A stretch of DNA of 64,000 nucleotides from Paenibacillus humicola (lineage in GTDB: Bacteria > Bacillota > Bacilli > Paenibacillales > Paenibacillaceae): positions 4,180,501 through 4,244,500 of the forward strand of contig NZ_JAQGPL010000001.1 of assembly GCF_028826105.1 (NCBI RefSeq), in the 5' to 3' direction. The notes beneath the pieces are model-generated. The model searched no databases, had not been told where the DNA came from, and was given only the letters and a program-made list of their open reading frames with translations. This document shows positions 1-42,423 of this stretch, in pieces. Made by a program: the position numbers and the translations under genes. The number at the start of each line of letters is the position of its first letter. The stretch's first letter is position 1.

Positions 1-1001
1 TTTCCGCAGGAGTCGCGAATTATGAGCCTTGGTTTCAAAAGGAAATGATCCGCAGGTCCTTTGCCGCCTCCTTCGATTTTTTGCAGCAGGCCTTCGGCCG
101 CTTTCATGCCGATATCCTGGAACGGCTGCCGGACCGTCGTGAGGGACGGGTACACCCATTCCGATATCGTAATGTCGTCGAAGCCGACGATCGACATCTG
201 CTTCGGCACGTTGTGGTCGTATTCCTGGACGGCGCGCAGCGCGCCGATCGCCGTTTCGTCGTTCGAGCCGATGACCGCGGTAAAGCCGGCGGTTTCGAGC
301 AGCTTCTTCATCGCTTTGTAACCGCCCTGATTGCTCCAGTCCGATTCGACGATCCAGTCTGCGTTATAGGTCAGCTGAAGCGCTTCCATTGCCTGCAAAT
401 AGCCTTTCAGCCGGTATTTGTTGGCGGCTGCATGATCCGGACCGGTAATATACGCGATTTTCCGGTGGCCCAGGCCGTGCAAATATTCGACGATTTCGTA
501 CACGCCCGCCGCGTTATCCACATCGACGGAGAAAATGTTGTCCATCTCGCCGTGGTCGCCGACCAGCGCGACCGGATAGCTGGAATCGCGGATTTGCTCC
601 AGATTCGCTACGCTGCGCTTTTGGAAGCTGACGAGAATAACGCCGTCCACCTGCCCTTCGTACAGCAGATTGAGAAAGGATATCTCTTCGGCATAGTTGG
701 AGGTCCAGCTCAGAAAGATGCAGTTATAGCCTTTCATATTGGCGACCCGCTCAATCCCGCGGATGATGCCGGAATAGAAAATGTTCGAAATGTTGTCTAC
801 GACGACGGCGATGATATTCGTCCTGTCGAGCACCAGTCTGCGCGCGTTGGCGTTGCGGTGGAAATTAAGCTCCTTGATCGCTTTCTCCAGCGCTTCCTGC
901 GTGGCCTTCTTCACTTTTTGCCCGTTCAAATACCGGGAGACGGTGCTTTTGGACGTGCCCGCAAGCCTTGCGACGTCATGAATGGTCGGTCCCATTGCCA
1001 T
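1..1001 (-). CDS. LacI/GalR-family transcriptional repressor (3' end off window)
   Basis: Reading the minus strand from an ATG at 1001 gives a LacI-family protein that begins MAMGPTIHDVARLAGTSKST, the typical N-terminal helix-turn-helix and hinge-helix region. It continues into a periplasmic-binding-protein-like effector domain (VVVDNISNIFYSGIIRGIE, later VGFDDITISEWVYPSLTTVR). The C-terminus is cut by the window edge just after a segment typical of the family's end (LKPRLIIRDS), so only a few residues are probably missing. The SD is GGAAAG, with an ATG at 995 as an alternative start. Such repressors usually sense a sugar or sugar phosphate. The ligand cannot be inferred here. Four copies of a perfect palindrome lie just upstream, which suggests autoregulation. 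Confidence 0.93.
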   Translation of the reverse strand, partial: MAMGPTIHDVARLAGTSKSTVSRYLNGQKVKKATQEALEKAIKELNFHRNANARRLVLDRTNIIAVVVDNISNIFYSGIIRGIERVANMKGYNCIFLSWTSNYAEEISFLNLLYEGQVDGVILVSFQKRSVANLEQIRDSSYPVALVGDHGEMDNIFSVDVDNAAGVYEIVEYLHGLGHRKIAYITGPDHAAANKYRLKGYLQAMEALQLTYNADWIVESDWSNQGGYKAMKKLLETAGFTAVIGSNDETAIGALRAVQEYDHNVPKQMSIVGFDDITISEWVYPSLTTVRQPFQDIGMKAAEGLLQKIEGGGKGPADHFLLKPRLIIRDSCG

Positions 1002-1056
1002 CACTCTTTCCACGTTAACGTTTCCCGAACCCGGTTTTCTAATATCGCCTGATTTT

Positions 1057-1350
1057 GGGAACGTTCCCATTTTACCAAAAAGAAGGTTCCGGCGATACCC
1101 ATCAGATTGGGAACGTTCCCGATTTACGAAGAGCCCTTCCGAAAACTTCTGTCTCCACGATTTGCTGATGAGAAACTAAAAATGGGAACGTTCCCAAAAA
1201 GAACATTGCAAAAATGACCTCTTTGCCTGCAGCCCGTGATCCCATGCTTCCGTCTTCTCCCGTTTGCTGCAGTCCATTCATCGATTCATTCATTTCTATG
1301 CACCGACAGCCGGATAGATAAGAAACCCGGATCATTTTGGGAACGTTCCC
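1057..1350. promoter_or_regulatory. Four perfect palindromic operators, GGGAACGTTCCC
   Basis: The 12-bp palindrome GGGAACGTTCCC occurs at 1057-1068, 1109-1120, 1184-1195 and 1339-1350, upstream of the LacI-family gene. The central CG flanked by an inverted repeat is the form of LacI-family operators. A degenerate relative (GGGAAACGTTAACG, minus strand) lies at about 1011-1026, next to the start codon. Spacings between centres are 52, 75 and 155 bp. I infer binding by the adjacent repressor; the sequence does not show which promoter besides its own is controlled. Confidence 0.8.
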
Positions 1351-1675
1351 GTTTTGATAAAAGAAAATCATTTATGCCTCTATGATAGCGGCTGCGGCGA
1401 AGCGTGTCAACCCTCATTTGAAGCGATCTGCGCGTGCCGCTGACGCTGACCCGCTCCCTTCTTACTTATGGATATGCCGCCATTCACCGGTTTATGCCAC
1501 CGCTTATTCCCTATCCGCCTTCCGCTCCGCCGGCGGCAACGCCCATTTCGTCAAGCAGCCGTCTATGGTCAAACACCAAGGGATAGATGTCCTCATATGA
1601 TGAATTAATTCGTGTAAATACCTACAGGCCGCTGGCTAATTCCTCCATCCTCCAGCAAACGGAAGGAGATCCGCG
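1351..1675. other. Intergenic stretch before the ATP-grasp operon
   Basis: No convincing gene is seen in these 325 bases: the short open frames lack a ribosome-binding site. The leader just before the first ATP-grasp gene should hold its promoter. A CATATGAT element at 1594-1601 resembles the -10 of mother-cell sigma factors (SigE/SigK), but I cannot find a well-spaced -35, so this is only a suggestion. Confidence 0.4.
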
Positions 1676-3034
1676 ATGCTGAAAACAAAAGTCGCCGTTC
1701 AGGTGATCAGCACAGGCATCTTGCCGGACGATGCGATCATGCTGGGCGAAGCTCACCTCAAAAAGTGGAAAATACCGCAGGGCCAGCCTGTAACGCTGAA
1801 GTTCGGCTCGCAGCGGCATCCCGTCAAGGTCGTGCCGGTCCTTCATTTCGACGGTCTGCGAATCGGGCAATCGCTCGCCAGACGGCTCGGCCTACTCGAA
1901 AACACGACGCTGCGCCTTCAGTACCGAAGCCAAAGCTCCACGCTTGCGCTCGGCCCGCTGATCGGCGTGCTCGTCAGCCGAGACGATCCGGGGAATCCGG
2001 AGCGGCCGTTCGGCTCGATCACGATGTTTTGCAAGGAGCTCGTCGATGCCTGCGCCGCGCAGGGCGCCTATGCGTATTTCTTTACCCCGAACCAGATTAC
2101 AGGCAGCACCTCGGTTGACGGGTGGATCTATGCAGGCGGCTGGCGCAAAACGACGATGCCGATTCCCGACGTTGTCAATAACCGGCTTACGTCCAGAAAA
2201 CTGGAAAATAGACCCGCCGTCCAGCTTTTTATGAAGGAAGTGAAGCAGCGCCACAACAGCGCCGTATTCAACGAAAAGTTTCTCGACAAGCCGGAGGTGT
2301 TCGATGCGCTGAGCAAAGATCCCTCGGTCGTGCGTTATTTGCCGGAATCGCATCTGCTCCGGAATTTCAGCATGCTGAAGACGATGTGCACCAGATATCA
2401 CACCGTCTTCCTGAAGCCGGTCCGGGGCAGCCTCGGCAAAGGCATCATCCGCATCTCCCGCTTGGATAAAGACGGCTATCAAGCCTTGTATGCCACCGCA
2501 GCCGGGACCCGAAGACAGCAATTTCCGAGCCTGCTCAAGCTTTTCGGTTCCATTTCCGGAAAAATGAAAACGGTCCGGTATCAAATCCAGCAGGGGCTGC
2601 ATCTGATCGATATCGGCGGCCGGCCGGTCGATTTCCGCGCTCTGGTGCAGAAAAACGAAGCCGGCAAGTGGGCGCTGACCTCGATTGTGGCCCGCACGGC
2701 GGGCAGCCGCCATTTCGTTTCCAACCTGGCGCGCGGCGGAACGCTCAGCACCGTCAGAGAAGCCGTCGCCAAGTCGAATTTGTCCGGCGCGAGCGACTCG
2801 TCCGCGCGGCTGCAGCGGGCGGCACTCGACATCGCCAAAGCGATCGACACCAACATTCCCGCCCATTTCGGCGAGCTCGGCATCGATCTCGCACTCGATT
2901 CGAACGGCCGGGTCTGGCTGCTGGAAGTGAACTCCAAGCCGTCGAAAAACGATAACACGCCGCTGCAGGACCGGAAAATAAGGCCTTCGGTCCGCAATAT
3001 GATCCGGTATGCGCGGCATTTGGCCGATTTTTAA
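1676..3034 (+). CDS. YheC/YheD-type endospore coat-associated ATP-grasp protein 1 (long, YheD-like)
   Basis: This 452-residue protein has two parts. Residues 1 to about 95 form a beta-rich N-terminal domain containing GQPVTLKFGS. From LGPLIGVLVSR onward comes the YheC/YheD ATP-grasp region. Visible ATP-grasp elements are the glycine-rich loop FLKPVRGSLGKGI, the central DFRALVQKNEAGKW, and the metal-binding C-terminal strand GIDLALDSNGRVWLLEVNSK. In Bacillus subtilis YheC and YheD are sporulation proteins associated with the forespore or coat; the reaction and substrate of the family are not established. ATP-grasp enzymes usually ligate a carboxylate to an amine. SD GGAAGGAG precedes the ATG. 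It is the first gene of a five-paralogue operon. Confidence 0.9.
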   Translation: MLKTKVAVQVISTGILPDDAIMLGEAHLKKWKIPQGQPVTLKFGSQRHPVKVVPVLHFDGLRIGQSLARRLGLLENTTLRLQYRSQSSTLALGPLIGVLVSRDDPGNPERPFGSITMFCKELVDACAAQGAYAYFFTPNQITGSTSVDGWIYAGGWRKTTMPIPDVVNNRLTSRKLENRPAVQLFMKEVKQRHNSAVFNEKFLDKPEVFDALSKDPSVVRYLPESHLLRNFSMLKTMCTRYHTVFLKPVRGSLGKGIIRISRLDKDGYQALYATAAGTRRQQFPSLLKLFGSISGKMKTVRYQIQQGLHLIDIGGRPVDFRALVQKNEAGKWALTSIVARTAGSRHFVSNLARGGTLSTVREAVAKSNLSGASDSSARLQRAALDIAKAIDTNIPAHFGELGIDLALDSNGRVWLLEVNSKPSKNDNTPLQDRKIRPSVRNMIRYARHLADF

Positions 3035-3052
3035 CCGAAAGGAGAAGCCGCC

Positions 3053-4303
3053 ATGAACAGCGCCAAGCGCCGGCCGCACGGTATCCGCGGCATTCTCGGC
3101 ATCCTTGTCAGCGAAAGGCGCCCCAGCCGGAATGATGGGCGGGAGCGGCCGTCCGGCATGCCCGAGGACACGTTCTGCCGGAGGCTGTGCCTGCAGGCCG
3201 AAGAGAGCGGGCTTGACGCCTTCGTCTTCGACGCCGAATCCGTGCTGTCCGCCGAGGCAAACGGCTCTTTGCAGGGCTGGAGGCTTCACCGGGGAGCGTG
3301 GCGGACCGAGTCCGCGCCGCCGCCGGAGCTCATCTACGACCGGTCGATGTGCCGGAATCCGGCCGAACGCGAGCGGCGTTCCAGTGCGCTCGCTTCCCTC
3401 TCCGGCCTGAACCGCTTCGTGCTGCTCGGCGGCTCGCTGCCCGGCAAGCCGGACGTCAACGCCGCTCTGCAGGACGACGAGGCGGTCCGCCCCTATTTGC
3501 CGCCGACCTTCCGGCTTGGCGAAGGGCCGCCGCTGGAAACGCTCGCCGGCCGCTGGCCGGAAGGCCTTTTCCTGAAGCCGGCTGCCGGCATGCAGGGACG
3601 CGGCGCGCTCTCCGCCCGCGAAGACGGCGGCCGGATTGCGGTGCTCGGGCGGGACCGGGCGAACCGCCCGCTCGACCGCGAATTCGCCCATTGGCCCGCT
3701 GCCGTCCGCTGGCTGAAACGATTTGCCGGCGGAAGCGAATATATCGTGCAGCCGCTTTTGCGGCTGACAAGCGGCGGCGGTCTCGCCTTCGACGTCCGCG
3801 CGCTCGTGCAGAAGGACGGCCGCGGCCGCTGGGCCTTTACGGGCGCGGCGGTGCGCGAAGGCGCTCCGGGCAGCGTCACCTCCAACCTGCACGGCGGCGG
3901 TAAGGCTTACCCCGCCGGCACCAGGCTGGCCCTGCTCTTCGGCGAGGAGCAAGCGGCGAAGCTGCTTGCTCGGATCCGCCGCACCGGCGAGCGCGCGGCA
4001 GCCGTCCTGGAGCGCCGCTTCGGCCGGCTAACCGAACTTGGCTTCGATTTCGGCATTGAGCCGGACGGCCGGATCTGGCTGCTTGAAGCGAACGCCAAGC
4101 CCGGACGCGAAGCGTTCGAAGCCGATCCGCATTTGTCCCGGCTTGCCGTCCGCAGGCCGATTCAATACGCGGCGATGCTGCTGAGCCGCCGCGGTCCCGT
4201 TTTTCCAGCCGCCATTAAGCTTTCAACCGATTCCAATGCCGCGACAAGAAACCTGCAGATGCCCGAATCCAAAAGGAGATACGTCCAGGAGGTTCTTCCA
4301 TGA
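3053..4303 (+). CDS. YheC/YheD-type ATP-grasp protein 2 (short, YheC-like, GC-rich)
   Basis: This 416-residue paralogue starts directly with the core domain (IRGILGILVSERR) and lacks the N-terminal beta domain of protein 1. The ATP-grasp landmarks are FLKPAAGMQGRGA, FDVRALVQKDGRGRW, GSVTSNLHGGG and ELGFDFGIEPDGRIWLLEAN, followed by AKPGRE. The nucleotide loop is less conserved than in its neighbours (Met-Gln where others have Ser-Leu). The gene is visibly richer in Ala, Arg and Gly codons than the flanking paralogues and has a basic tail of about 40 residues. It starts 18 bp after gene 1 (SD AAAGGAG) and its stop overlaps the start of gene 3 by 4 bp. It could be a diverging copy. Confidence 0.87.
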   Translation: MNSAKRRPHGIRGILGILVSERRPSRNDGRERPSGMPEDTFCRRLCLQAEESGLDAFVFDAESVLSAEANGSLQGWRLHRGAWRTESAPPPELIYDRSMCRNPAERERRSSALASLSGLNRFVLLGGSLPGKPDVNAALQDDEAVRPYLPPTFRLGEGPPLETLAGRWPEGLFLKPAAGMQGRGALSAREDGGRIAVLGRDRANRPLDREFAHWPAAVRWLKRFAGGSEYIVQPLLRLTSGGGLAFDVRALVQKDGRGRWAFTGAAVREGAPGSVTSNLHGGGKAYPAGTRLALLFGEEQAAKLLARIRRTGERAAAVLERRFGRLTELGFDFGIEPDGRIWLLEANAKPGREAFEADPHLSRLAVRRPIQYAAMLLSRRGPVFPAAIKLSTDSNAATRNLQMPESKRRYVQEVLP

Positions 4304-5673
4304 GTTTGACATCGTGTCACGTACACTTTTCGCCGCAAAGCGATAAAGTCATCTACTTGTCGGGTTCGCTCCTTAAAACGCTCAAGCTGTCCGGCAAGAA
4401 AACGATCCAGCTGAAGTTCGGAGGCGAGTCGGTTACCGCGGTCGTCAAACCGCTCAAGCGGCCGGGACAGCATCTGTATTTATCCTCCGGCGTCCGTCAG
4501 CGGATCCGCATACCGAAAACGGGCAGCGTCACGCTGCTTCAATCCGGCGACAGCGAGTTCCAGATCGGCCCGCTCATCGGCGTGCTGACCGATTCCGCCG
4601 TGCGTACGGCCAGTCATCCGTTCGGCTCGCGAACCGCTTATATCCGGCAGCTGCTGCGCACCGGCGAGAATAAAGCGTATATGTTCGCCTTCACGCCGCG
4701 CGACATCAACTGGCAGCAGGACCTGGTTTACGGGTATTTCCTGACGAGTCAAGGCGGCTGGTACCGGAGAACCATACCGCTGCCGGACGTTGTGTACAAC
4801 CGGCTCCCGAGCCGCAGAGCGGAAACGACCGAATCGATCGTGACGCTGCGCGAACGTTTTGTCCGCCGCAAAATCCCGTTCTTCAACTGGAGCTTTTTCA
4901 ATAAATCCGACGTCTACAAGCTGCTCGACCAGGACGTCGAAGCGCTGCGGCATCTGCCCGAATCGGTCAACAATCCGCGGCCCGAGAAAATCAAGGAAAT
5001 GCTGGAGAAGCACCAATTCATCTATTACAAACCGACCGCCGGCAGTCTCGGCATCGGCATTTACCGGCTCACCTACCATCCGCAGCGAGGATATTTTGCA
5101 AGGTACCGGCGAAACGGCAAAAACGTGCTGCTGCGCTTTACCCAGTTCAACAGCCTGATGCGGATGCTGCAAGCCCGCCACGGCAGCGCCCTCGGCCGGT
5201 ACGTCAGCCAGCAGGGCGTCCGGCTGATCGAAATCGACGGCTGCCCGATCGATTTCCGGTTTCATATGCACAAGAACGGCAATAACGAGTGGGTTCCCGT
5301 CGGCATCGGCGCGAAAAAAGCCGGGCGCGGCAGCGTAACGACGCACATCAAGAACGGAGGCCAGCTGCTGACGCCGGAAACGGCGCTGAAGCAGGCGTTC
5401 GGCGACGAGGCCGACGACATGCTCGATAAAGCGAAGAAGGTTTCCGTCAAACTGTCGGAAGCGATCGAGCGCAATTTCCCGCATACGCTCGGCGAGCTCG
5501 GTCTGGACATCGGCATCGACAAGGACGGCGAGGTCTGGATGTTTGAAGCGAACGCCAAGCCCGGCCGCTCCATCTTCCACCACCCGGCGCTCCGTTCTCA
5601 AGGCCGTTCCTCGCTCAGTCATATTCTCGAACACTGCATGTATTTAAGCCGGTTTCAAGGAGGGAGCAGCTGA
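4300..5673 (+). CDS. YheC/YheD-type ATP-grasp protein 3 (long, YheD-like)
   Basis: This 457-residue protein has the same two-part build as protein 1: an N-terminal beta-rich domain (TIQLKFGGESVTAVVKPL) and, from IGPLIGVLTD, the ATP-grasp region. Motifs are YYKPTAGSLGIGI, IDFRFHMHKNGNNEW, RGSVTTHIKNGG and ELGLDIGIDKDGEVWMFEAN followed by AKPGRS. The central motif reads RFHMHKN where the other copies have RALVQKN, so the nucleotide or substrate pocket differs slightly. Its ATG overlaps the stop of gene 2 (ATGA), and its TGA overlaps the ATG of gene 4 by one base. This implies translational coupling and probably balanced production. Confidence 0.9.
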   Translation: MSLTSCHVHFSPQSDKVIYLSGSLLKTLKLSGKKTIQLKFGGESVTAVVKPLKRPGQHLYLSSGVRQRIRIPKTGSVTLLQSGDSEFQIGPLIGVLTDSAVRTASHPFGSRTAYIRQLLRTGENKAYMFAFTPRDINWQQDLVYGYFLTSQGGWYRRTIPLPDVVYNRLPSRRAETTESIVTLRERFVRRKIPFFNWSFFNKSDVYKLLDQDVEALRHLPESVNNPRPEKIKEMLEKHQFIYYKPTAGSLGIGIYRLTYHPQRGYFARYRRNGKNVLLRFTQFNSLMRMLQARHGSALGRYVSQQGVRLIEIDGCPIDFRFHMHKNGNNEWVPVGIGAKKAGRGSVTTHIKNGGQLLTPETALKQAFGDEADDMLDKAKKVSVKLSEAIERNFPHTLGELGLDIGIDKDGEVWMFEANAKPGRSIFHHPALRSQGRSSLSHILEHCMYLSRFQGGSS

Positions 5674-6833
5674 TGGAAACCGTCGTGCAGGGTGAGAACG
5701 CCGCTTTGAACATTCAGGCCAGCCGGCCGGTGCTGGCCATCCTGACGATCGAGGACGACATCCAGCTGTTCCGGGGCAACCGCAGCAATTTCGCCGACCT
5801 CATCATGACCGGCCGCGAGCACGGGTTTATCGTATATGTGCTGGCAGTGAGGGATTTAAAGCTGAGACGCAAGCAGCTTGACGGCTTCGGCTACGAGGAA
5901 AAAACGGACACGTGGGTGCTGGGCAAGTTTCCTTTTCCCGATTTCATCTACAACCGCATTCCGCTCCGGGAAGACGAACTGCAGCCGGGCGTCAGGCAAA
6001 AAATTATATCCTGTCTGAAGGATCCGCGCGTTACGCTGTTCAATCCATCGTTTTTCAACAAATGGAGTCTGTTCAAATGGCTTCGCCAGTCGCCCACGAC
6101 GCGGCCCTATATCCCCTCGACGAGAAGGATGCTCACGCGCGAGGGACTCGGAAAAATGATGGTGAAGCACCGGTTCCTGTATTTAAAGCCGGTCAGCGGC
6201 AAAGCCGGAAAAGGGATTATGGCGATTCAGGTGCGCCCCGAAAAAACGCTGCCTTACCGGCTTAAAATCCAGGCCGACCGAAAAAGCATCACCTACAACT
6301 GCGGTACGATCAGCAGTCTGTGGACACGGATCAAGAAGGAAAGCTCCGGCGAGCGATATATCGCCCAGCAGGGCATCCGGCTTGCCTCCTACAACGACCG
6401 TTCCTTCGACCTGCGCGCGCTCGTCCAGAAAAACCAACTGGGCGAATGGGAAATTTCCGGAATCGGCGCCCGCGTCGCCGGTTCCGCCAGCATTACGACC
6501 CATGTGCCGCGCGGCGGCAGCATCGACGACCCGGAGAAGCTGCTCTCGAGCGCATTCGGCGAGGAAGAAGCGCATAAGCTGCTTGTAAAGATACGCAGAA
6601 CGGCGCTCATCATCGCACGCCAGATCGAACGCGGCGCCCGTCATAAGCTGGCGGAAATGTCGATGGACCTGGGCGTCGACCAGCAAGGCTCGGTCTGGTT
6701 TTTCGAGGCCAACGCGAAGCCGATGAAATTCGACGAGCCGGATATCCGGAAACGGTCGCTCGAGCGTATTTTCCAGTACAGCCAGTATGTGCTGAAATCA
6801 AAAAAAAAGAGACCGGTCCGAACCGGGGACTAA
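5673..6833 (+). CDS. YheC/YheD-type ATP-grasp protein 4 (short, YheC-like)
   Basis: This 386-residue paralogue opens with a short leader and the core strand PVLAILTIEDD. Landmarks are YLKPVSGKAGKGI, FDLRALVQKNQLGEWEISG, ASITTHVPRGG and MSMDLGVDQQGSVWFFEAN followed by AKP. The acidic residue and Asn of the final strand that bind metal in ATP-grasp enzymes are kept. The C-terminus is lysine- and arginine-rich (SKKKRPVR). The start overlaps the stop of gene 3 by one base, and an SD GGAGGGAG sits inside the end of gene 3. The gap to the GNAT gene downstream is 45 bp. Confidence 0.9.
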   Translation: METVVQGENAALNIQASRPVLAILTIEDDIQLFRGNRSNFADLIMTGREHGFIVYVLAVRDLKLRRKQLDGFGYEEKTDTWVLGKFPFPDFIYNRIPLREDELQPGVRQKIISCLKDPRVTLFNPSFFNKWSLFKWLRQSPTTRPYIPSTRRMLTREGLGKMMVKHRFLYLKPVSGKAGKGIMAIQVRPEKTLPYRLKIQADRKSITYNCGTISSLWTRIKKESSGERYIAQQGIRLASYNDRSFDLRALVQKNQLGEWEISGIGARVAGSASITTHVPRGGSIDDPEKLLSSAFGEEEAHKLLVKIRRTALIIARQIERGARHKLAEMSMDLGVDQQGSVWFFEANAKPMKFDEPDIRKRSLERIFQYSQYVLKSKKKRPVRTGD

Positions 6834-6878
6834 GTCCGGATCATTCAACGACGGGCATCATGCAGGAGGTATCGGAGC

Positions 6879-7427
6879 ATGGAAGTGAGGCTGCTGTCGC
6901 CGGCACAACTCGAGGCCGTGCACAACCGGCTGCTGGCCTTCTGCCGGAAATACGGCGACAGCCGGCTGACGGCTGCGGCCCTTCGCGAGCTGCGCGAGCT
7001 GAAGGCCGAGGAGCTGGCGGCGCCGGAAAGCGCAGCGGCACGGCCGGCCGGCCGCAGCGCGGCCGCAGGCACCGCCAACGCCGGCGGAGCCGCCGGCAGC
7101 TGGGTGCCGGCATCGCGCGAGCCGCGGCGCACGGCAGCCGTCGCCGTCGCCGTCGGCGGCGGTAGGCTCGCCGGCGTCGCCTTCGCCGCGGACGCCGGCG
7201 AGCGCGCATGCCTCGTCGCCGTGCGCCCCGAGGCAAGAGGCCGGGGCACAGGCGCCTCGCTTCTCCTTGCGCTGCGCAGCCGCTGGGGGCGGCTCAGCTG
7301 CAGCGTCGCCGCCGATAACCCGGCGAGCATGCAAATGTGCTTTCGCGCCGGAATGAAGGCGGTCGGCCTGTTTGCCGGGCCGACCGGAAAGCCGACGCTC
7401 CGGTTCGAAAGCGAGCCCGAGAACTAG
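6879..7427 (+). CDS. GNAT-family N-acetyltransferase with low-complexity middle
   Basis: This 182-residue protein shows the acetyl-CoA-binding motif of the GNAT fold (LVAVRPEARGRGTGASLL, about residues 108-126), then a segment with Asn-Pro-Ala-Ser and Phe-Arg-Ala-Gly-Met typical of the final GNAT strands (residues 140-160). Before that, residues 48-90 are almost entirely Ala, Gly, Pro, Arg and Ser, so they are likely an unstructured linker between an N-terminal helical part and the catalytic half. The family moves acetyl groups to amines; the substrate is unknown here. It lies inside the ATP-grasp operon, with SD AGGAGG and 11 bp to the next gene. I infer a linked job, for example capping an amine that an ATP-grasp protein makes or uses. 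Confidence 0.82.
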   Translation: MEVRLLSPAQLEAVHNRLLAFCRKYGDSRLTAAALRELRELKAEELAAPESAAARPAGRSAAAGTANAGGAAGSWVPASREPRRTAAVAVAVGGGRLAGVAFAADAGERACLVAVRPEARGRGTGASLLLALRSRWGRLSCSVAADNPASMQMCFRAGMKAVGLFAGPTGKPTLRFESEPEN

Positions 7428-7438
7428 GAGGAATCCGC

Positions 7439-8596
7439 ATGGGCCAGCCCGTGCTGGGCATATTAACGCTCTATTTAAACGACAACGGCTTGCTGGAAGA
7501 AAGAACGGTCTATCAGAAAATGACGGAGGCGGGCCGCAAGCTGGGACTTGACATCTTTGTTTTTACGCCGGACGACGTCAACTATAAACAAAACCGGATC
7601 CATGCGCTCATCTTCGATCCCGCGACAAAACGCTGGTCGCGCAAATGGCGGTCGTTCCCCCATTTGATTTACGACCGCTGCCGGATCCAGCGCAGCTCCC
7701 GGTTCGAACGGCTGCAGGTGTTTCGCAGCAAATACGGGCATTTGACGTTTTTGAACCGGGTGCTCCGCAACAAATGGACGGTATACAAAACGATGCGGCG
7801 GGAGGAACGGTTCCGCTCCCACCTGCCGCTTACCCGATCTTACGAATCGCCGAACGATCTTACCGAAATGGTCCGCAAATATCCGCTCGTTTATTTGAAG
7901 CCGATCGACGGCACCGGCGGACGGGGAATCCTGCGGATCGAGAAGCAGCGGGACGGCACCTGCCTGATTCAGGGCCGCGATCTATCGCGGCGCATTATCA
8001 GCCCGCAGCTCGTGAAGCTCTCCTCGCTGCACAGCCGGTTATCCGGCTGGAACCTGAAGAACAGGCGCTATCTCGTGCAGCAGGGCATTCAGCTCAAGCT
8101 GCCGAACGGCCGGGTGCACGATTACCGGATGCTGGTGCAGAAAAACGGCCGCGGCGCCTGGGAGGTAACCGGCTGCGCCGGGCGGGTCGGAGCGGCGCGG
8201 AGCATTACGTCCAACCTGCACGGCGGAGGGCACGCGCGCACGATGCAGAGCCTGCTCAGCCAGTGGCTCGGCGACGAGGAGAAGACGAAGGCGGTCAAAC
8301 AGCATGCGGAGGAGCTCGGTGTCGAAATCGCCGATTTTCTCGAACAGTCGTACGGCAGACTGTGCGAGCTCGCGCTCGATCTGGCCATCGACCGCAATGG
8401 CCACATTTGGCTGCTCGAGGTCAACCCGAAGCCGGCCCGCGAGGTGTTCGCCCAGGCCGGCGAGCGCACGACGTACCGGCGGGCGATTACCCGGCCGCTC
8501 GAGTATGCGCTTTGGCTGTACGGGCAAAAGAAAAACAACCGGGATAAGGCGCAAGTCGCCGATGCCCAGGAAAAAGCAAATCCCGGAACGCCTTGA
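7439..8596 (+). CDS. YheC/YheD-type ATP-grasp protein 5 (short, YheC-like)
   Basis: A start at the ATG 7439 (SD CTAGGAGGAAT) gives a 385-residue protein beginning MGQPVLGILTLYLNDNG, like the other short paralogues. An in-frame ATG further upstream exists but would overlap the GNAT gene and has no SD. Motifs are YLKPIDGTGGRGI, DYRMLVQKNGRGAWEVTG, RSITSNLHGGG and LALDLAIDRNGHIWLLEVN followed by PKPARE. All the ATP-grasp landmarks are present, so an active enzyme is likely. It is the last gene of the operon. A strong terminator hairpin overlaps its stop codon. Confidence 0.9.
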   Translation: MGQPVLGILTLYLNDNGLLEERTVYQKMTEAGRKLGLDIFVFTPDDVNYKQNRIHALIFDPATKRWSRKWRSFPHLIYDRCRIQRSSRFERLQVFRSKYGHLTFLNRVLRNKWTVYKTMRREERFRSHLPLTRSYESPNDLTEMVRKYPLVYLKPIDGTGGRGILRIEKQRDGTCLIQGRDLSRRIISPQLVKLSSLHSRLSGWNLKNRRYLVQQGIQLKLPNGRVHDYRMLVQKNGRGAWEVTGCAGRVGAARSITSNLHGGGHARTMQSLLSQWLGDEEKTKAVKQHAEELGVEIADFLEQSYGRLCELALDLAIDRNGHIWLLEVNPKPAREVFAQAGERTTYRRAITRPLEYALWLYGQKKNNRDKAQVADAQEKANPGTP

Positions 8597-8619
8597 CAGG
8601 CCGCTTCCGGGATTTTTCT
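8578..8619 (+). terminator. Rho-independent terminator of the ATP-grasp operon
   Basis: The stem AAATCCCGGAA / TTCCGGGATTT (8578-8588 with 8605-8615) is followed by a T-rich tract. It begins inside the last codons of the fifth ATP-grasp gene. Confidence 0.85.
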
Positions 8620-8635
8620 TTGCCGGGCGGCGCCT

Positions 8636-8824
8636 TTAGTCGAGGCTGTTCCGCTCCGCTTTATCGATGTATTCGTTCGGCACTTCGTGACCAAAAGGAT
8701 TGTTGTTCTTAAACTGGCTTAAACGGCCGTTGCGGAACTCCCCTCCGTGCACTTCGGAATCCCGCTGATCGTTGTTGTCGGTCCGGCCGCGCCGGTTGCG
8801 GTTGTAATTGACGTTCTCGCCCAT
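8636..8824 (-). CDS. Small hydrophilic protein, unknown function (62 aa)
   Basis: An ATG at 8824 with SD AGGGAGG gives 62 residues beginning MGENVNYNRNRRGRTDNNDQ. It is very hydrophilic, rich in Asn, Arg, Glu and Asp, with no Cys and no hydrophobic stretch, so it is probably a soluble or unstructured protein. The middle contains NNNPFGHEVPNEYIDKAERN. Such small Asn-rich proteins are common among sporulation and coat-associated products of Bacillales, but I recognise no family. A good SD and the absence of a competing gene support it as real. Confidence 0.65.
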   Translation of the reverse strand: MGENVNYNRNRRGRTDNNDQRDSEVHGGEFRNGRLSQFKNNNPFGHEVPNEYIDKAERNSLD

Positions 8825-8903
8825 GCGGCGCCTCCCTGTCCATAATGGCTGAACACGAAGGTTAGCATGCGGCCGTTCGGGCGCAATTATGCATCGGTCG
8901 GCG

Positions 8904-10043
8904 TTACCATTTGGCGGGATCGATATCCTGCGGCCGCAGACCGGCCCAAACGTTCGCAATATGCGCCTCTTCCGGATGCTCGAACACGAGCCACGCCGTC
9001 GGGAGATAGCGGCCCTCCGGACTTTTCGTCGACGGCTTGTTCAGCACCTTCCCGTCCTTGACGAGCATGGTGGACGAGCCTCCGTCCAAATTGGCGGCAA
9101 TGACGGCGCCGTGCTTCAGCATGATCTGCTGCACGTCGTACAAATTGGCGCCGATGCTTCGGCCGGGCTGCCGCCCGTCGATGACGACGAACAGGATCGC
9201 GCCGTCTGCGCGCTGCCCCATTGCCGTGCGCGGCGCGATGCCCCAGCCGTCCTTCGCGTTTTTGATCAGTCCTTTACCGTTCACGATAATACGCGGCTGG
9301 AACGTCACCGCCTCCTGAACGCCCATGTCCTGCATCTGTTTCAGCGTGTACCGCCCGGCAATCATTTTGCCGTTTTTGTCGATGCCGACAATCTGCGTCG
9401 TCTTGCTCTTGCCCGTGTCGTCGTAAAACACCTTGCCCTGCGAAATGACGACGCCGATTGGCTGGAAGCCGTTTCCTTCCCAATTCGGATCGGCAAAGCC
9501 GCCCGCGTTGACGCCGGCAATCGCGCCGTAGCGCTGAACCATGCTGAGTACCCGTTCCCCCTTGCCCGGGACAGCCGGCACGCCGAGCCGGATTTTGGTC
9601 GGATCGTTGACAATCATCAGAAACCCTTTGTAGCCCGCTCCGGAAATGTCCTCGACCTGCACGAGCGGCTTGGCTTCTTCGACCGCCGGCGGCGGCAGGG
9701 TGATCTGGTGACGATCCTTCTCCACGCCCATATCGTCGAACTGCTTCTGATACTCCGCCACCCGGCGGTTCAGCTCGGCCTGGCCGATGATATATTTCGC
9801 CAAATACCGGTGCTGCGTCGTAATGAGCGTATCGGCCGCAAGGTACCGGATATTCGTGCCCGAAGGCGTTAAAAACAGCCAGCCCACAGCCGATACGGCC
9901 AGCAGGACCAGCAGGAGGAACAGGCGAAACAGTGTGCGGCCGAGCCGTTTTTTATGTTTTTTTGCGCTTCTTCGCTGCCGTGCCGCAGCCGTCCGGCTGC
10001 GCTCGGACGTGACCGAAGAAGCGGATGTAAGCTTCGTATCCAT
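8904..10043 (-). CDS. Membrane-anchored phosphodiester glycosidase (NAGPA-type) domain protein
   Basis: From the ATG at 10043 (SD GAGG) the product has 379 residues. It starts with a basic cytoplasmic tail (RQRRSAKKHKKRLGR), then one transmembrane segment (LFLLLVLLAVSAVGWLFL, about 38-55), then an extracytoplasmic domain. The C-terminal half carries the hallmarks of the phosphodiester glycosidase family: GVNAGGFADPNWEGNG, APRTAMGQRADGAILFVVID, and the signature NLDGGSSTMLV. Bacterial members are thought to act on exopolysaccharides or wall glycans outside the cell. The substrate is unknown. Longer open frame upstream exists but lacks a ribosome-binding site. Confidence 0.88.
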   Translation of the reverse strand: MDTKLTSASSVTSERSRTAAARQRRSAKKHKKRLGRTLFRLFLLLVLLAVSAVGWLFLTPSGTNIRYLAADTLITTQHRYLAKYIIGQAELNRRVAEYQKQFDDMGVEKDRHQITLPPPAVEEAKPLVQVEDISGAGYKGFLMIVNDPTKIRLGVPAVPGKGERVLSMVQRYGAIAGVNAGGFADPNWEGNGFQPIGVVISQGKVFYDDTGKSKTTQIVGIDKNGKMIAGRYTLKQMQDMGVQEAVTFQPRIIVNGKGLIKNAKDGWGIAPRTAMGQRADGAILFVVIDGRQPGRSIGANLYDVQQIMLKHGAVIAANLDGGSSTMLVKDGKVLNKPSTKSPEGRYLPTAWLVFEHPEEAHIANVWAGLRPQDIDPAKW

Positions 10044-10264
10044 CCTGACGCCTCGTTTCTCACGCTGAAATGTACCTATTAAACGAGACGAATCGCGAAA
10101 AAGTTTCGGTTTGCGGCCAAAAATCGGCACGATCCGGGACCGCAGGCATAAGACCGGCAGGCACCGGTGAAAAAGAGGCGTTTGTATCTCTTGCAACCGC
10201 CAACGCACAAATACAAGCCGATTCATATCCATAACGTATATTGAACGAAAAGGGAAGATGCTCC

Positions 10265-10552
10265 ATGACCTGCCGAATCGGATATGTGCTCGTCGTCAAC
10301 AACGCGGGAACGATCATTTTCGGAAACGTCGATACCATCTCGACATCCGATACGTCGACGTCCAACAGCGGTTCGGGTGCCGAAGCCGGGCCGAACGGTC
10401 CGGCGGCCGAAGGCGGGAGCGGCGCCGCTGCCGGCGGCAGCGAGCCGGGCTCGCAAGCCGCGGGCGTTTCGTCAGCAGGAAGGCGGACTGCTGGACAATA
10501 CGCCCGGGCGCAAGCGGCGGCATCGGGGAGCAAGCGCAGGAAACGAACATGA
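10265..10552 (+). CDS. GerPA/GerPF-like small protein with Gly/Ala-rich tail
   Basis: An ATG at 10265 with SD AGGGAAG gives a 95-residue protein. Its first 40 residues (GYVLVVNNAGTIIFGNVDTI, then STSDTSTSNSGSG) match the pattern of spore germination proteins GerPA/GerPF: two short beta strands, a Phe-Gly, a Ser-rich stretch and a Gly-Ser motif. The remainder is Gly/Ala/Ser-rich and ends SKRRKRT. The last residues and the stop codon come from the first unit of an intergenic repeat (see 10525-10714), so the tail may have been altered by repeat insertion. Upstream TTG at 10241 is an alternative start. GerP proteins sit in the spore coat and help germinants pass. Family assignment is tentative. 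Confidence 0.5.
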   Translation: MTCRIGYVLVVNNAGTIIFGNVDTISTSDTSTSNSGSGAEAGPNGPAAEGGSGAAAGGSEPGSQAAGVSSAGRRTAGQYARAQAAASGSKRRKRT

Positions 10553-10714
10553 GCCATAACGGCAACAGACCGCACCGGGCAATTTCGTGGAGCAAGTGAA
10601 GAAATCGATGTGAGCCAAAGCGGAAACATGACCGCCCTGGCGCCGGTGGCAATTTCGGGGAGTAAGCGCAGGAAACGAACGTGAGCCATAACGAAAACAG
10701 ACCGCCCCCGGCAA
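10525..10714. repeat. Three imperfect tandem repeats of 58-70 bp
   Basis: Units start at 10525, 10587 and 10657. Each begins GGGGAGCAAGCGCAGGAAAC or a close variant and continues through ACATGAGCCATAACGGCAAC to a GGGCAATTTC-like end. The first and third copies are nearly identical; the second has drifted. The minus-strand translation repeats AHVRFLRLLP, but no initiation signal supports a gene. The first copy gives the stop codon of the GerPA/GerPF-like gene. This looks like an intergenic repeat family that could occur elsewhere in the genome. Confidence 0.8.
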
Positions 10715-10807
10715 GGTACGGTCTGGTCTAACCGAACTATTCATGACACACAAACGGCCGCTAGAAGCGGTCCAAACAAAGCGGCCCTTCATCACGGCCG
10801 CTGCAAA

Positions 10808-10838
10808 GAGGAGTCGATGGCAATCGGCTCCTCTTTTT
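10808..10838 (+). terminator. Hairpin terminator before cotJC
   Basis: GAGGAGTCGAT / ATCGGCTCCTC with a GGCA loop, followed by TTTTT. It would stop plus-strand transcription from the GerPA/GerPF-like gene. It lies 28 bp from the 3' end of convergent cotJC and could act in both directions. Confidence 0.8.
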
Positions 10839-10865
10839 ATTTTTATCCGTTCATGGATGGCTTCA

Positions 10866-11435
10866 TCAATATACCTTTTTCGTATCTCGGTCGGCTTTGA
10901 TCATCTCGACCGCTTCCTTGAACCGCATGGCGTGCACGACCTCGCGTTGGCGCAGGAACTTCAGTCCGTCCTGGAGATCGACGTCGTCGGTCAGGTCGAT
11001 CAGCCACTGATACGTCGCCCTCGCCTTCTCCTCGGCTGCGATATCTTCGTATAAGTCGGCCAGCGGATCGCCCTTCGCCTGAATGTAAGCCGCCGTCCAG
11101 GGAACGCCCGAGGAATTTTGATAAAACAGCGCGTTGTCATGCTGCGAATAATGATCCCCAAGTCCAGCCGCTCGCATCTGATCCGGCGTGGCATCCTTCG
11201 TCAGCTTGTAAACCATCGTCGCGATCATTTCGAGATGCGCGAATTCTTCGGTACCGATATCGGTCAGCAGCCCGATCACTTTATCGGGAATCGAATAGCG
11301 CTGATTTAAGTATCGCAGCGCCGCGGCAAGCTCGCCGTCGGCGCCGCCGTATTGCTCGAGCAGAAATTTGGCCATCATCGGATCGCATTTGCTGACGCGA
11401 ACCGGATACTGCAGCTTTTTTTCATAAATCCACAT
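10866..11435 (-). CDS. cotJC: Spore coat protein CotJC (manganese catalase family)
   Basis: A start at ATG 11435 (SD GGAGGG) gives 189 residues beginning MWIYEKKLQYPVRVSKCDPM, as in Bacillus CotJC. The protein belongs to the ferritin-like manganese catalase family: metal-binding segments are LLTDIGTEEFAHLEMIATMV near the N-terminal half, and DIAAEEKARATYQWL and REVVHAMRFKEAVEMI further on. In Bacillus CotJC is an inner coat protein needed with CotJA. Last gene of the cotJABC operon, 54 bp after cotJB. Confidence 0.96.
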   Translation of the reverse strand: MWIYEKKLQYPVRVSKCDPMMAKFLLEQYGGADGELAAALRYLNQRYSIPDKVIGLLTDIGTEEFAHLEMIATMVYKLTKDATPDQMRAAGLGDHYSQHDNALFYQNSSGVPWTAAYIQAKGDPLADLYEDIAAEEKARATYQWLIDLTDDVDLQDGLKFLRQREVVHAMRFKEAVEMIKADRDTKKVY

Positions 11436-11489
11436 TGTTTTCCATCCCTCCGAACCCGTCATCGGCTGCCGCCGTCCGGGGAGCTTTCG

Positions 11490-11753
11490 TTATACCTGCC
11501 AAGGCCAGGGAGTGTCGACCCACTGCCACGGGTATTTCGAAAAGCTGTGCCCGAACTGCATCAGCGGACCGTACTGCATTTCGAACTGGTAAGCGCACTG
11601 CTGGCGCTGCTGGGCCAGCTGATTGAACTGCTGCAGCGCCTGCATGTCGTTCGGGTGCGTATCCAAAAACAAGGTCAGCTCGACCAGCGCAAATTCCAGC
11701 TGCTGCAGCTCCTCGAGCTTCCGGTAATAGTTCTCGTCCAGCTGTTTGCTCAT
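11490..11753 (-). CDS. cotJB: Spore coat protein CotJB
   Basis: The 87-residue product begins MSKQLDENYYRKLEELQQLE and ends with a Trp- and Pro-rich segment (FSKYPWQWVDTPWPWQV), both typical of CotJB. Composition is rich in Gln, Leu and aromatic residues, with a predicted helical start. SD is AGGAGG. Its ATG overlaps the stop codon of cotJA by 4 bp (ATGA), so translation is coupled. In Bacillus CotJB is a coat assembly component made in the mother cell with CotJA and CotJC. Confidence 0.95.
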   Translation of the reverse strand: MSKQLDENYYRKLEELQQLEFALVELTLFLDTHPNDMQALQQFNQLAQQRQQCAYQFEMQYGPLMQFGHSFSKYPWQWVDTPWPWQV

Positions 11754-11980
11754 GGCTGCAGTCCTCCTTTGCCGCATTTCGATTCATACGGACTGTACAG
11801 CGCAGGCCAAAGCGTTCCGACATGGAGCGCCTGATGGAGCGGAAACTGCGGTAAATTCATGGGCTGGTAGGGGATGAACTGGTTGGGCGGCACGACGTAG
11901 GTTTTCACGTACTTCGGGGGGCATGGGTCGAAAGGCCCGACGAACGGATACCACTCGCGGGTCTGACTCGGCTCGTTCAC
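11750..11980 (-). CDS. cotJA: Spore coat-associated protein CotJA
   Basis: A GTG start at 11980 with a very strong SD (TAAGGAGGAAT) gives 76 residues. The sequence has the CotJA signature: YPFVGPFDPCPP, then VVPPNQFIPYQP, NLPQF and GTLWPALYSPYE. In Bacillus cotJABC is transcribed by SigE and the products are recruited to the spore coat; CotJA is needed for CotJC assembly. The first gene of the operon here. A longer upstream frame is open but has no initiation signal. Confidence 0.94.
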   Translation of the reverse strand: MNEPSQTREWYPFVGPFDPCPPKYVKTYVVPPNQFIPYQPMNLPQFPLHQALHVGTLWPALYSPYESKCGKGGLQP

Positions 11981-12148
11981 CAGCGGATTCCTCCTTAGGT
12001 TTCTTTTTTCTTTAGCTATCTTATGACGTTCGCCCATCTTTAGTTCCCGCAGCGCCCATTTTTTTGATCCCGGGGAAGTCCCTCGTTTCAAAGCCGCGAC
12101 AATCCGAACCTGCCGAGGTAACGGCCGTTTCCTTCCGTTCAAACGAAA

Positions 12149-41604: not shown

Positions 41605-42423
41605 TTGGGAAAATGGAAGCTTCATCAGTTTTACAGTCGCGACGAGGGACTGCGCGGCCTGCTGCCGAGCACGTCCCTGTACAGTCCCGCTGCCCTGAAG
41701 CGTTATTTGAATCGTTACCGGGCGGTTTATATTAAGCCGGATATGGAGCATACCGGAAAAGGCATCGTGAAAGCATGGCGTACGGGCGAAGGCTATGCTT
41801 TCATCAAAGTCCGCGGTCGGAGGTCCGCGTCCGTTCCGGGCACGGAAGCGCTGCATAAGCAAATGGGTCTCGGCGGCAAACGGGGCGCCTACGTCATTCA
41901 GCGCGCGATCGAGCTTGCTTCCGTCAAGGGACGGGCGTTCGACGTGCGGGTGATGATGATGCGCTACCGGGGCAAATGGACGTATGCGGGCATGATCGCC
42001 AAGGTTGCGGGGCCGGGCAGCATCGTGACCAACGTGCGCCGCGGCCGCGGGTATACGATGACGGTTCCGGGCGCGCTGCGGGTATCCGGCCGGTTTGACG
42101 GCGGCGAGATCGAGCGCTTCACCGGCCGGCTGGTCGCCGTCAGTCGGAAGGTATGTGCCCGGTTCGACCGGTATAAATTCAGCCGCCAGATCGGCATCGA
42201 TTACGGCATCGACAAGAACGGCCGGCTGTGGATCATCGAGGTCAATTTCGATTACCCTTCCCATGCCCTTTTTCTCGGCCTGAAGGATAAAACCTTTTAC
42301 CGCAAAATAAAACGCATCCAGGCGTCGTGGAAAAAGCGGACGAAGTCCGAACCGCGGCCGGCTGAAGCCGTTTCCAACCTTGGCCTTTCGGGTCCGGCCG
42401 TTCCCGCCGAGCGCAAAAAGTAG
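41605..42423 (+). CDS. YheC/YheD-type ATP-grasp protein 6, short and diverged
   Basis: A TTG start at 41605 (SD GGGAGGATC) gives 272 residues, containing only the ATP-grasp region. Landmarks are YIKPDMEHTGKGIVKAW, FDVRVMMMRYRGKWTYAGMI, GSIVTNVRRGRGYTM and GIDYGIDKNGRLWIIEVN. The Lys-Pro after the final Asn, present in all five copies at 1.7-8.6 kb, is replaced by FDYPSH, and the glycine loop reads DMEHTGKG. The C-terminus is basic. This matches a common Bacillales group of short YheC/D-like proteins, so it is a family member with altered specificity rather than a broken copy. Confidence 0.85.
   Translation: MGKWKLHQFYSRDEGLRGLLPSTSLYSPAALKRYLNRYRAVYIKPDMEHTGKGIVKAWRTGEGYAFIKVRGRRSASVPGTEALHKQMGLGGKRGAYVIQRAIELASVKGRAFDVRVMMMRYRGKWTYAGMIAKVAGPGSIVTNVRRGRGYTMTVPGALRVSGRFDGGEIERFTGRLVAVSRKVCARFDRYKFSRQIGIDYGIDKNGRLWIIEVNFDYPSHALFLGLKDKTFYRKIKRIQASWKKRTKSEPRPAEAVSNLGLSGPAVPAERKK

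Follow-up and report, generated by a model that had tools for sequence, protein, structure and literature searches.

A conserved block of YheC/YheD-family ATP-grasp genes that goes with sporulation in Paenibacillaceae, and its possible role in coat chemistry

Why would a spore former carry five genes of the YheC/YheD family in one unit when Bacillus subtilis has a pair? The question is raised by a stretch of 64,000 nucleotides from Paenibacillus humicola (contig NZ_JAQGPL010000001.1, positions 4,180,501 to 4,244,500), here called the window, in which an earlier note made from the sequence alone had described five ATP-grasp genes (A1 to A5, in order) and a GNAT-family acetyltransferase gene as one unit at 1676-8596 (Table 1). 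The function of YheC and YheD has been open since their placement on the B. subtilis spore, and attention to the pair alone may be misplaced, because a fuller set (five ATP-grasp groups, the GNAT protein and a second amidoligase of family PF14395) is kept in Paenibacillaceae and in many other families. The block is ordinary for Paenibacillaceae, is clustered beyond chance and goes with sporulation. The interpretation favored here, given a probability of roughly 0.55, is that it represents a spore-specific mother-cell cassette whose amide ligases work one after another on some component of the coat, with acetylation as a further step.

An ordered block of five ATP-grasp groups

The description of five YheC/YheD ATP-grasp genes and a GNAT gene with 4-base-pair (bp) and 1-bp overlaps stands up to the open reading frames (ORFs), the sequence and the PF14398 scores, which run from 198 to 278 bits in A1-A5 and all exceed the curated cut-off of 26.8 bits; the division into long forms (A1 and A3) and short forms (A2, A4 and A5) likewise agrees with the ORF lengths. 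A1 and A2 are separated by 18 bp, A2 and A3 overlap by 4 bp and A3 and A4 by 1 bp, and the GNAT gene is set off by gaps of 45 bp from A4 and 11 bp from A5. The A5 ORF as listed begins with GTG at 7337, within the GNAT gene; given that AGGAGG precedes the ATG at 7439, the latter is the more likely start. The possibility of artefact ORFs was rejected on the PF14398 scores and on the presence of GNAT relatives throughout the genus.

PF14398 was found in 141 of 148 genomes of Paenibacillaceae, in high and variable copy number (up to 16 matches), and a search of the window genome returned 11 matches, namely A1-A5 and six elsewhere. In 40 family stretches, each picked for holding a top-scoring match (20 from the window genus and 20 others), the order A1-A2-A3-A4 appears in all 40, with A5 next in 39 and a GNAT gene in 35; one stretch (L066) has several broken ORFs, taken for draft errors. 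A further set, the best 80 of 503 relatives of an A3/A1 profile detected across named genomes, comes partly from the same genomes and is anchored on A3, so that the presence of A3 is no test. All 80 of these loci keep the order, 69 have A5 adjoining the block and 63 contain a GNAT gene. With start codons set by alignment to the window genes, the A2/A3 overlap is 4 bp in 49 of 80 loci, A3 and A4 share a single bp in 49 loci and 4 bp in another 19, and gaps inside A1-A4 are mostly below 60 bp. Clustering exceeds chance because five of the 11 genomic matches lie here and the order is kept in every one of the 80 loci. LacI, NAGPA and Mn-catalase neighbors accompany only some of these loci and are no fixed part of the block.

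Beyond the family, the rest of the class supplied a further 40 stretches, picked for high-scoring matches, and 25 of them, from 13 families, show the canonical A1-A2-A3-A4 by best match, the second slot matching A2 or its sister A5; three more hold four genes with weaker assignment, and the remaining 12 hold other arrangements of two to four genes. Loss of synteny in close relatives had been named beforehand as one result that would refute the proposal, and the family and class loci gave no such refutation. A GNAT gene of the same kind lies in 23 of the 40 class stretches, including 21 of the 25 canonical ones, and a relative is present in 22 of 22 genomes of the window genus, with two separate matches in 13; the proposed acetyltransferase partner is thus a recurrent one. 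The window GNAT falls just under both Pfam cut-offs (24.2 against 27 and 22.2 against 23.6), and its relatives L193 and L166 exceed the cut-off with two models each.

A tree of 109 domains, from a short search with SH-aLRT (approximate likelihood-ratio) support only, recovers cross-family groups holding A1 (99), A3 (97), A2 (95), A5 (94) and A4 (88), and joins A2 with A5 (98) and A3 with A4 (97). Judged by the tree, A1-A5 are five old orthologous groups and not recent copies; since each group spans different families, the cassette is itself old. A two-copy genome of the class (G217) holds one A2-type gene, on a long branch, and one A3-type gene, and for this reason the yheC-yheD-like pair looks like a reduced form or remnant of the larger set, the G217 pair being presumably equivalent to that of B. 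subtilis. The suggestion of an undescribed system or an unusual expansion was not borne out: Paenibacillaceae carry the block as a rule, many other members of the class have it too, and YheC/YheD family is a widespread annotation for proteins of this kind. In the phylum, 25 of 71 genomes match PF14398 (three of them from Paenibacillaceae), and clusters of several such genes occur outside the class as well. One genome of another class (G307, contig C3, about 96810-113733) has roughly twelve PF14398 matches in a row.

Association with sporulation and a second amidoligase

Among 121 class genomes, 87 carry PF14398 together with the spore protein SpoIVA and 24 carry neither, in counts that ignore kinship. 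Within Paenibacillaceae, the seven genomes without PF14398 all belong to one genus, g7, perhaps Saccharibacillus and the only genus without high-scoring members, and SpoIVA is absent from 13 of 13 genomes of g7 and present in 11 of 11 comparison genomes of the family. Both lines of evidence support the spore linkage that had been suggested for the block. The other six g7 genomes keep three or four PF14398 genes each (best match 7.8e-59, weaker than A1, A3, A4 and A5 of the window); given the absence of SpoIVA throughout g7, these members may not be spore genes. In B. subtilis, YheD forms a SpoIVA-dependent shell and self-interacts (PMC7911427, PMC7769602), and yheC and yheD are both named in a sporulation context in PMC517825.

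The upstream region provides a further pointer. Of 81 regions upstream of A1, 78 carry the box CATA[TC][GA]AT at a distance of 70 to 113 bp from the start, against none in the reversed control, and 61 contain an exact copy of the longer TGTCCTCATATGATG; in regions with a divergent middle, a stretch resembling ATCAC persists together with the CATATGATG box, a promoter-like pattern. CATA is common to sigma-E and sigma-K promoters, and the conserved box does not decide between the two. The pattern CACC-N16..18-CATATGATR has five sites in the genome, one before A1, one before the spoVIF gene (PF14069) and three without a convincing gene; the spoVIF-like spacing may hint at sigma-K, a weak pointer in that the reversed control also has one site, compared with five in the genome.

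A second amidoligase is a frequent partner. A gene for a PF14395 (COOH-NH2 ligase) protein sits among the YheCD genes in several families, and three such products tested score 325 to 350 bits. PF14395 occurs in 77 of the 121 class genomes, every one of which has PF14398 and SpoIVA, and ten genomes have both without it. Among the best 30 PF14395 loci, 17 lie beside YheCD genes, 13 between cotE and mutS, and none elsewhere. In Paenibacillaceae the gene is beside cotE in 11 of 11 genomes, the window genome and ten more (with mutS on the other side in nine of the ten); it is found in 0 of 13 genomes of g7 and in 10 of 10 comparison genomes. Iyer et al. 2009 and the Pfam text on PF14395 reportedly name the cotE neighborhood already.

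Possible chemistry and competing explanations

The columns holding the catalytic lysine, the glycine-rich loop, the Asp/Arg pair and the E-x-N metal motif are at least 96% conserved in each of the A1-A5 groups, counted over rows of at least 250 bits, which leaves out 38 of 80 A2 rows; the roles of these residues are presumably those of RimK-type enzymes. The modeled fold is predicted to lie closest to RimK, glutathione synthetase (GshB) and LysX/ArgX (20 to 22 by VIA-align), and the Foldseek and VIA-align comparisons of the model together support the amide-ligase type of fold that had been expected. In the long form, the model places a p97/Cdc48-N-like barrel before the ATP-grasp core, with the two beta-beta-alpha-beta units that define a double-psi beta-barrel. 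Sequence comparison is less generous: A1 and A5 score 21.3 and 24.1 bits against the RimK model TIGR00768, whose cut-off is 143.4, the match of A1 to the tubulin-tyrosine ligase (TTL) model PF03133 (24.7 bits, cut-off 20.1) is confined to residues 395-444, A3 alone finds nothing in the PDB at E <=1, and an A1/A3 profile finds weak GshB and TTL matches there. Because the structures are similar though the cut-off is missed, A1-A5 may work like RimK without being members of it.

On the favored interpretation, the block genes would be transcribed in the mother cell. Each enzyme would convert a carboxylate to an acyl phosphate and join it to an amine, and the target would be a coat protein, or a peptide bound to the coat, that the long forms hold via their barrel and to which the enzymes add different residues in turn or which they modify at different sites. 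A free amine might be acetylated by the GNAT protein, as a cap or intermediate, and the PF14395 enzyme could form one more amide bond close to CotE. According to PMC4431377, ligases encoded together often act successively, and a GNAT cap may follow; the same paper cites Iyer et al. 2009 for operons in which ATP-grasp ligase genes are linked with those for a COOH-NH2 ligase or a GNAT protein.

Known systems resemble the block in part. With the B. subtilis pair it shares PF14398, adjacent long and short forms, and sporulation (PMC517825, PMC7911427), but here five ATP-grasp genes stand with a GNAT gene. RimK, the poly-alpha-glutamate ligase acting on ribosomal protein S6, has 16% identity; the block falls far below its model cut-off, has the extra N-terminal barrel in its long forms and lies in a different genomic setting. 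From glutathione synthetase and from LysX/ArgX, which ligate amino acids to the carrier LysW, the block differs as a multi-gene set; no LysW-like carrier turned up, in the course of work that included no search aimed at one. In comparison with the graspetide ligases PsnB and AMdnB, no precursor peptide was recognized between the block genes, small ORFs and distant precursors not having been searched systematically.

Several observations weigh against a coat-directed cassette. PF14398 occurs without SpoIVA in three genomes (G007 of g7 and two with weak matches), and SpoIVA without PF14398 in seven of the 121, one of them fragmentary. The GNAT gene was not found in 17, nor A5 in 11, of the 80 family loci. 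The RimK and other ligase models are missed by a wide margin (for A1, by that between 21.3 and 143.4 bits), and a fixed sigma-E pattern matches 0 and a sigma-K pattern 5 of the 81 upstream regions. In a control search PF14398 also matched in E. coli, Synechococcus and two methanogens as well as in B. subtilis, so that a family match alone proves neither a spore function nor a reaction. Finally, it is gene neighborhood that suggests a coat substrate, and the case for the block genes is computational.

Other products deserve consideration. The ligases might make a small, soluble, oligopeptide-like metabolite in the mother cell, comparable to glutathione or ligase-built dipeptides and stored in or around the spore, with coat proteins left unmodified. 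GshB is among the nearest structures and is the nearest PDB sequence match (E 0.006), and several ligases with a GNAT protein are reported for metabolite pathways (PMC4431377). This is nevertheless unlikely, since PF14395 lies beside cotE, YheD is itself located on the spore surface (PMC7911427), and no transporter or amino-acid-making gene was identified in the block, although its flanks lack systematic annotation. A spore envelope polymer (cortex peptidoglycan, or a teichuronopeptide-like or capsule-like material) is a distinctly less probable substrate: D-Ala ligases, whose ATP-grasp fold is one made for wall peptides, rank high in Foldseek, and the sugar-transfer-associated ATP-grasp model PF14397 gives a weak second match in four of the five proteins, but VIA-align puts Ddl at 16.9, below RimK, GshB and LysX/ArgX, and the neighborhood leads to cotE, a coat gene.

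It is more doubtful still that the proteins are mainly structural, polymerizing into a coat layer with vestigial catalysis. B. subtilis YheD does self-interact strongly in a two-hybrid test and form a shell (PMC7911427), but a protein serving only as scaffold would have no need of the catalytic columns, and each of the five groups retains them. A recent local expansion confined to a single lineage and lacking any special role would fit the many and variable copies in the family; it is highly improbable, being contradicted by orthologous clades over many families and by the kept order, and recent local duplication was rejected on the same two counts.

Coat modification by sequential ligases remains the favored interpretation, and a broader version of it may be offered as a tentative, rather doubtful conjecture. 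Many spore-forming Bacilli might share a non-ribosomal coat-peptide assembly line in which separate RimK-type enzymes A1-A5 act in order, two of them dock on protein via the p97-N-like barrel, and the product, once acetyl-capped, is attached to the coat near CotE by the PF14395 amidoligase. Most of this line would have been lost where a yheCD-like pair is left, perhaps in B. subtilis too, and such loss, if true, would explain why the assembly line was missed. A small gene set is now named for asking whether ligases build a peptide modification on spore coats; if they do, most of the class would have a coat chemistry unlike the textbook picture, which is based on B. subtilis. Systems of this kind are already known. 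Iyer et al. 2009 (Mol Biosyst) is said to have published the general idea, predicting that YheC/D ATP-grasp proteins and COOH-NH2 ligases in the neighborhood of CotE take part in spore modification. Within the open-access literature searched, which leaves most subscription journals outside, no paper reporting a YheC/YheD reaction was found, and the new elements are the five orthologous groups in a fixed order, the barrel domain, the conserved promoter region and the count of PF14395 genes in their two settings.

Coordinates and further genes

Table 1. Features of the block, its upstream region and the cotE locus (window positions, except in the last line)
Feature	Position	Strand	Remarks
Candidate mother-cell (sigma-E/sigma-K-type) promoter	1571..1602	+	CACC at 1574, 16-bp spacer, CATATGATG at 1594; 82 bp before A1 start
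A1, long YheC/YheD-family ATP-grasp protein, 452 amino acids (aa)	1676..3034	+	PF14398 263 bits; own clade; catalytic residues kept
A2, short YheC/YheD-family ATP-grasp protein, 416 aa	3053..4303	+	PF14398 198 bits; fastest evolving; sister group of A5
A3, long YheC/YheD-family ATP-grasp protein, 457 aa	4300..5673	+	PF14398 270 bits; model confidence (pLDDT) 89.5; RimK-like
A3 N-terminal domain, predicted double-psi beta-barrel	4300..4587	+	
A4, short YheC/YheD-family ATP-grasp protein, 386 aa	5673..6833	+	PF14398 258 bits; groups with A3
GNAT-family acetyltransferase, 182 aa	6879..7427	+	PF13508/PF13673 just below cut-off
A5, short YheC/YheD-family ATP-grasp protein, 385 aa	7439..8596	+	PF14398 278 bits, scored on the 7337 ORF
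PF14395 amidoligase between cotE (PF10628) and mutS	G000:C1:2271557-2272309 (L208 6817-8325)	+	

No structured RNA matched Rfam at the gathering threshold within 1-12000, and a tRNA/tmRNA search of the window found none. Convergent with A5 lies a small Asn-rich ORF of 62 aa (8636-8824, minus strand), which has no Pfam match at E <=1 and no blast match at 1e-4 across the 80 Paenibacillaceae loci.

Other PF14398 genes of this genome stand apart from the block. A lone, shorter one in the window (41605-42423, plus strand; 272 aa, 154 bits) forms a long branch in the tree, and another (L008, G000:C1:4295166-4295825, minus strand) has an internal stop codon and is probably a pseudogene. Near the chromosome start, a further lone gene (L007, G000:C1:6489-7214, minus strand) falls in a tree clade different from that of the block, and its product reaches 28.3 bits with the TTL model, above the cut-off of 20.1. 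Iiyama et al. 2014, as cited in PMC5627462, describe a YheCD-like orf14 that lies between gyrB and gyrA; the gene at C1:6489-7214 is likely this orf14, which shares PF14398 with the block but is here a lone gene of another clade.

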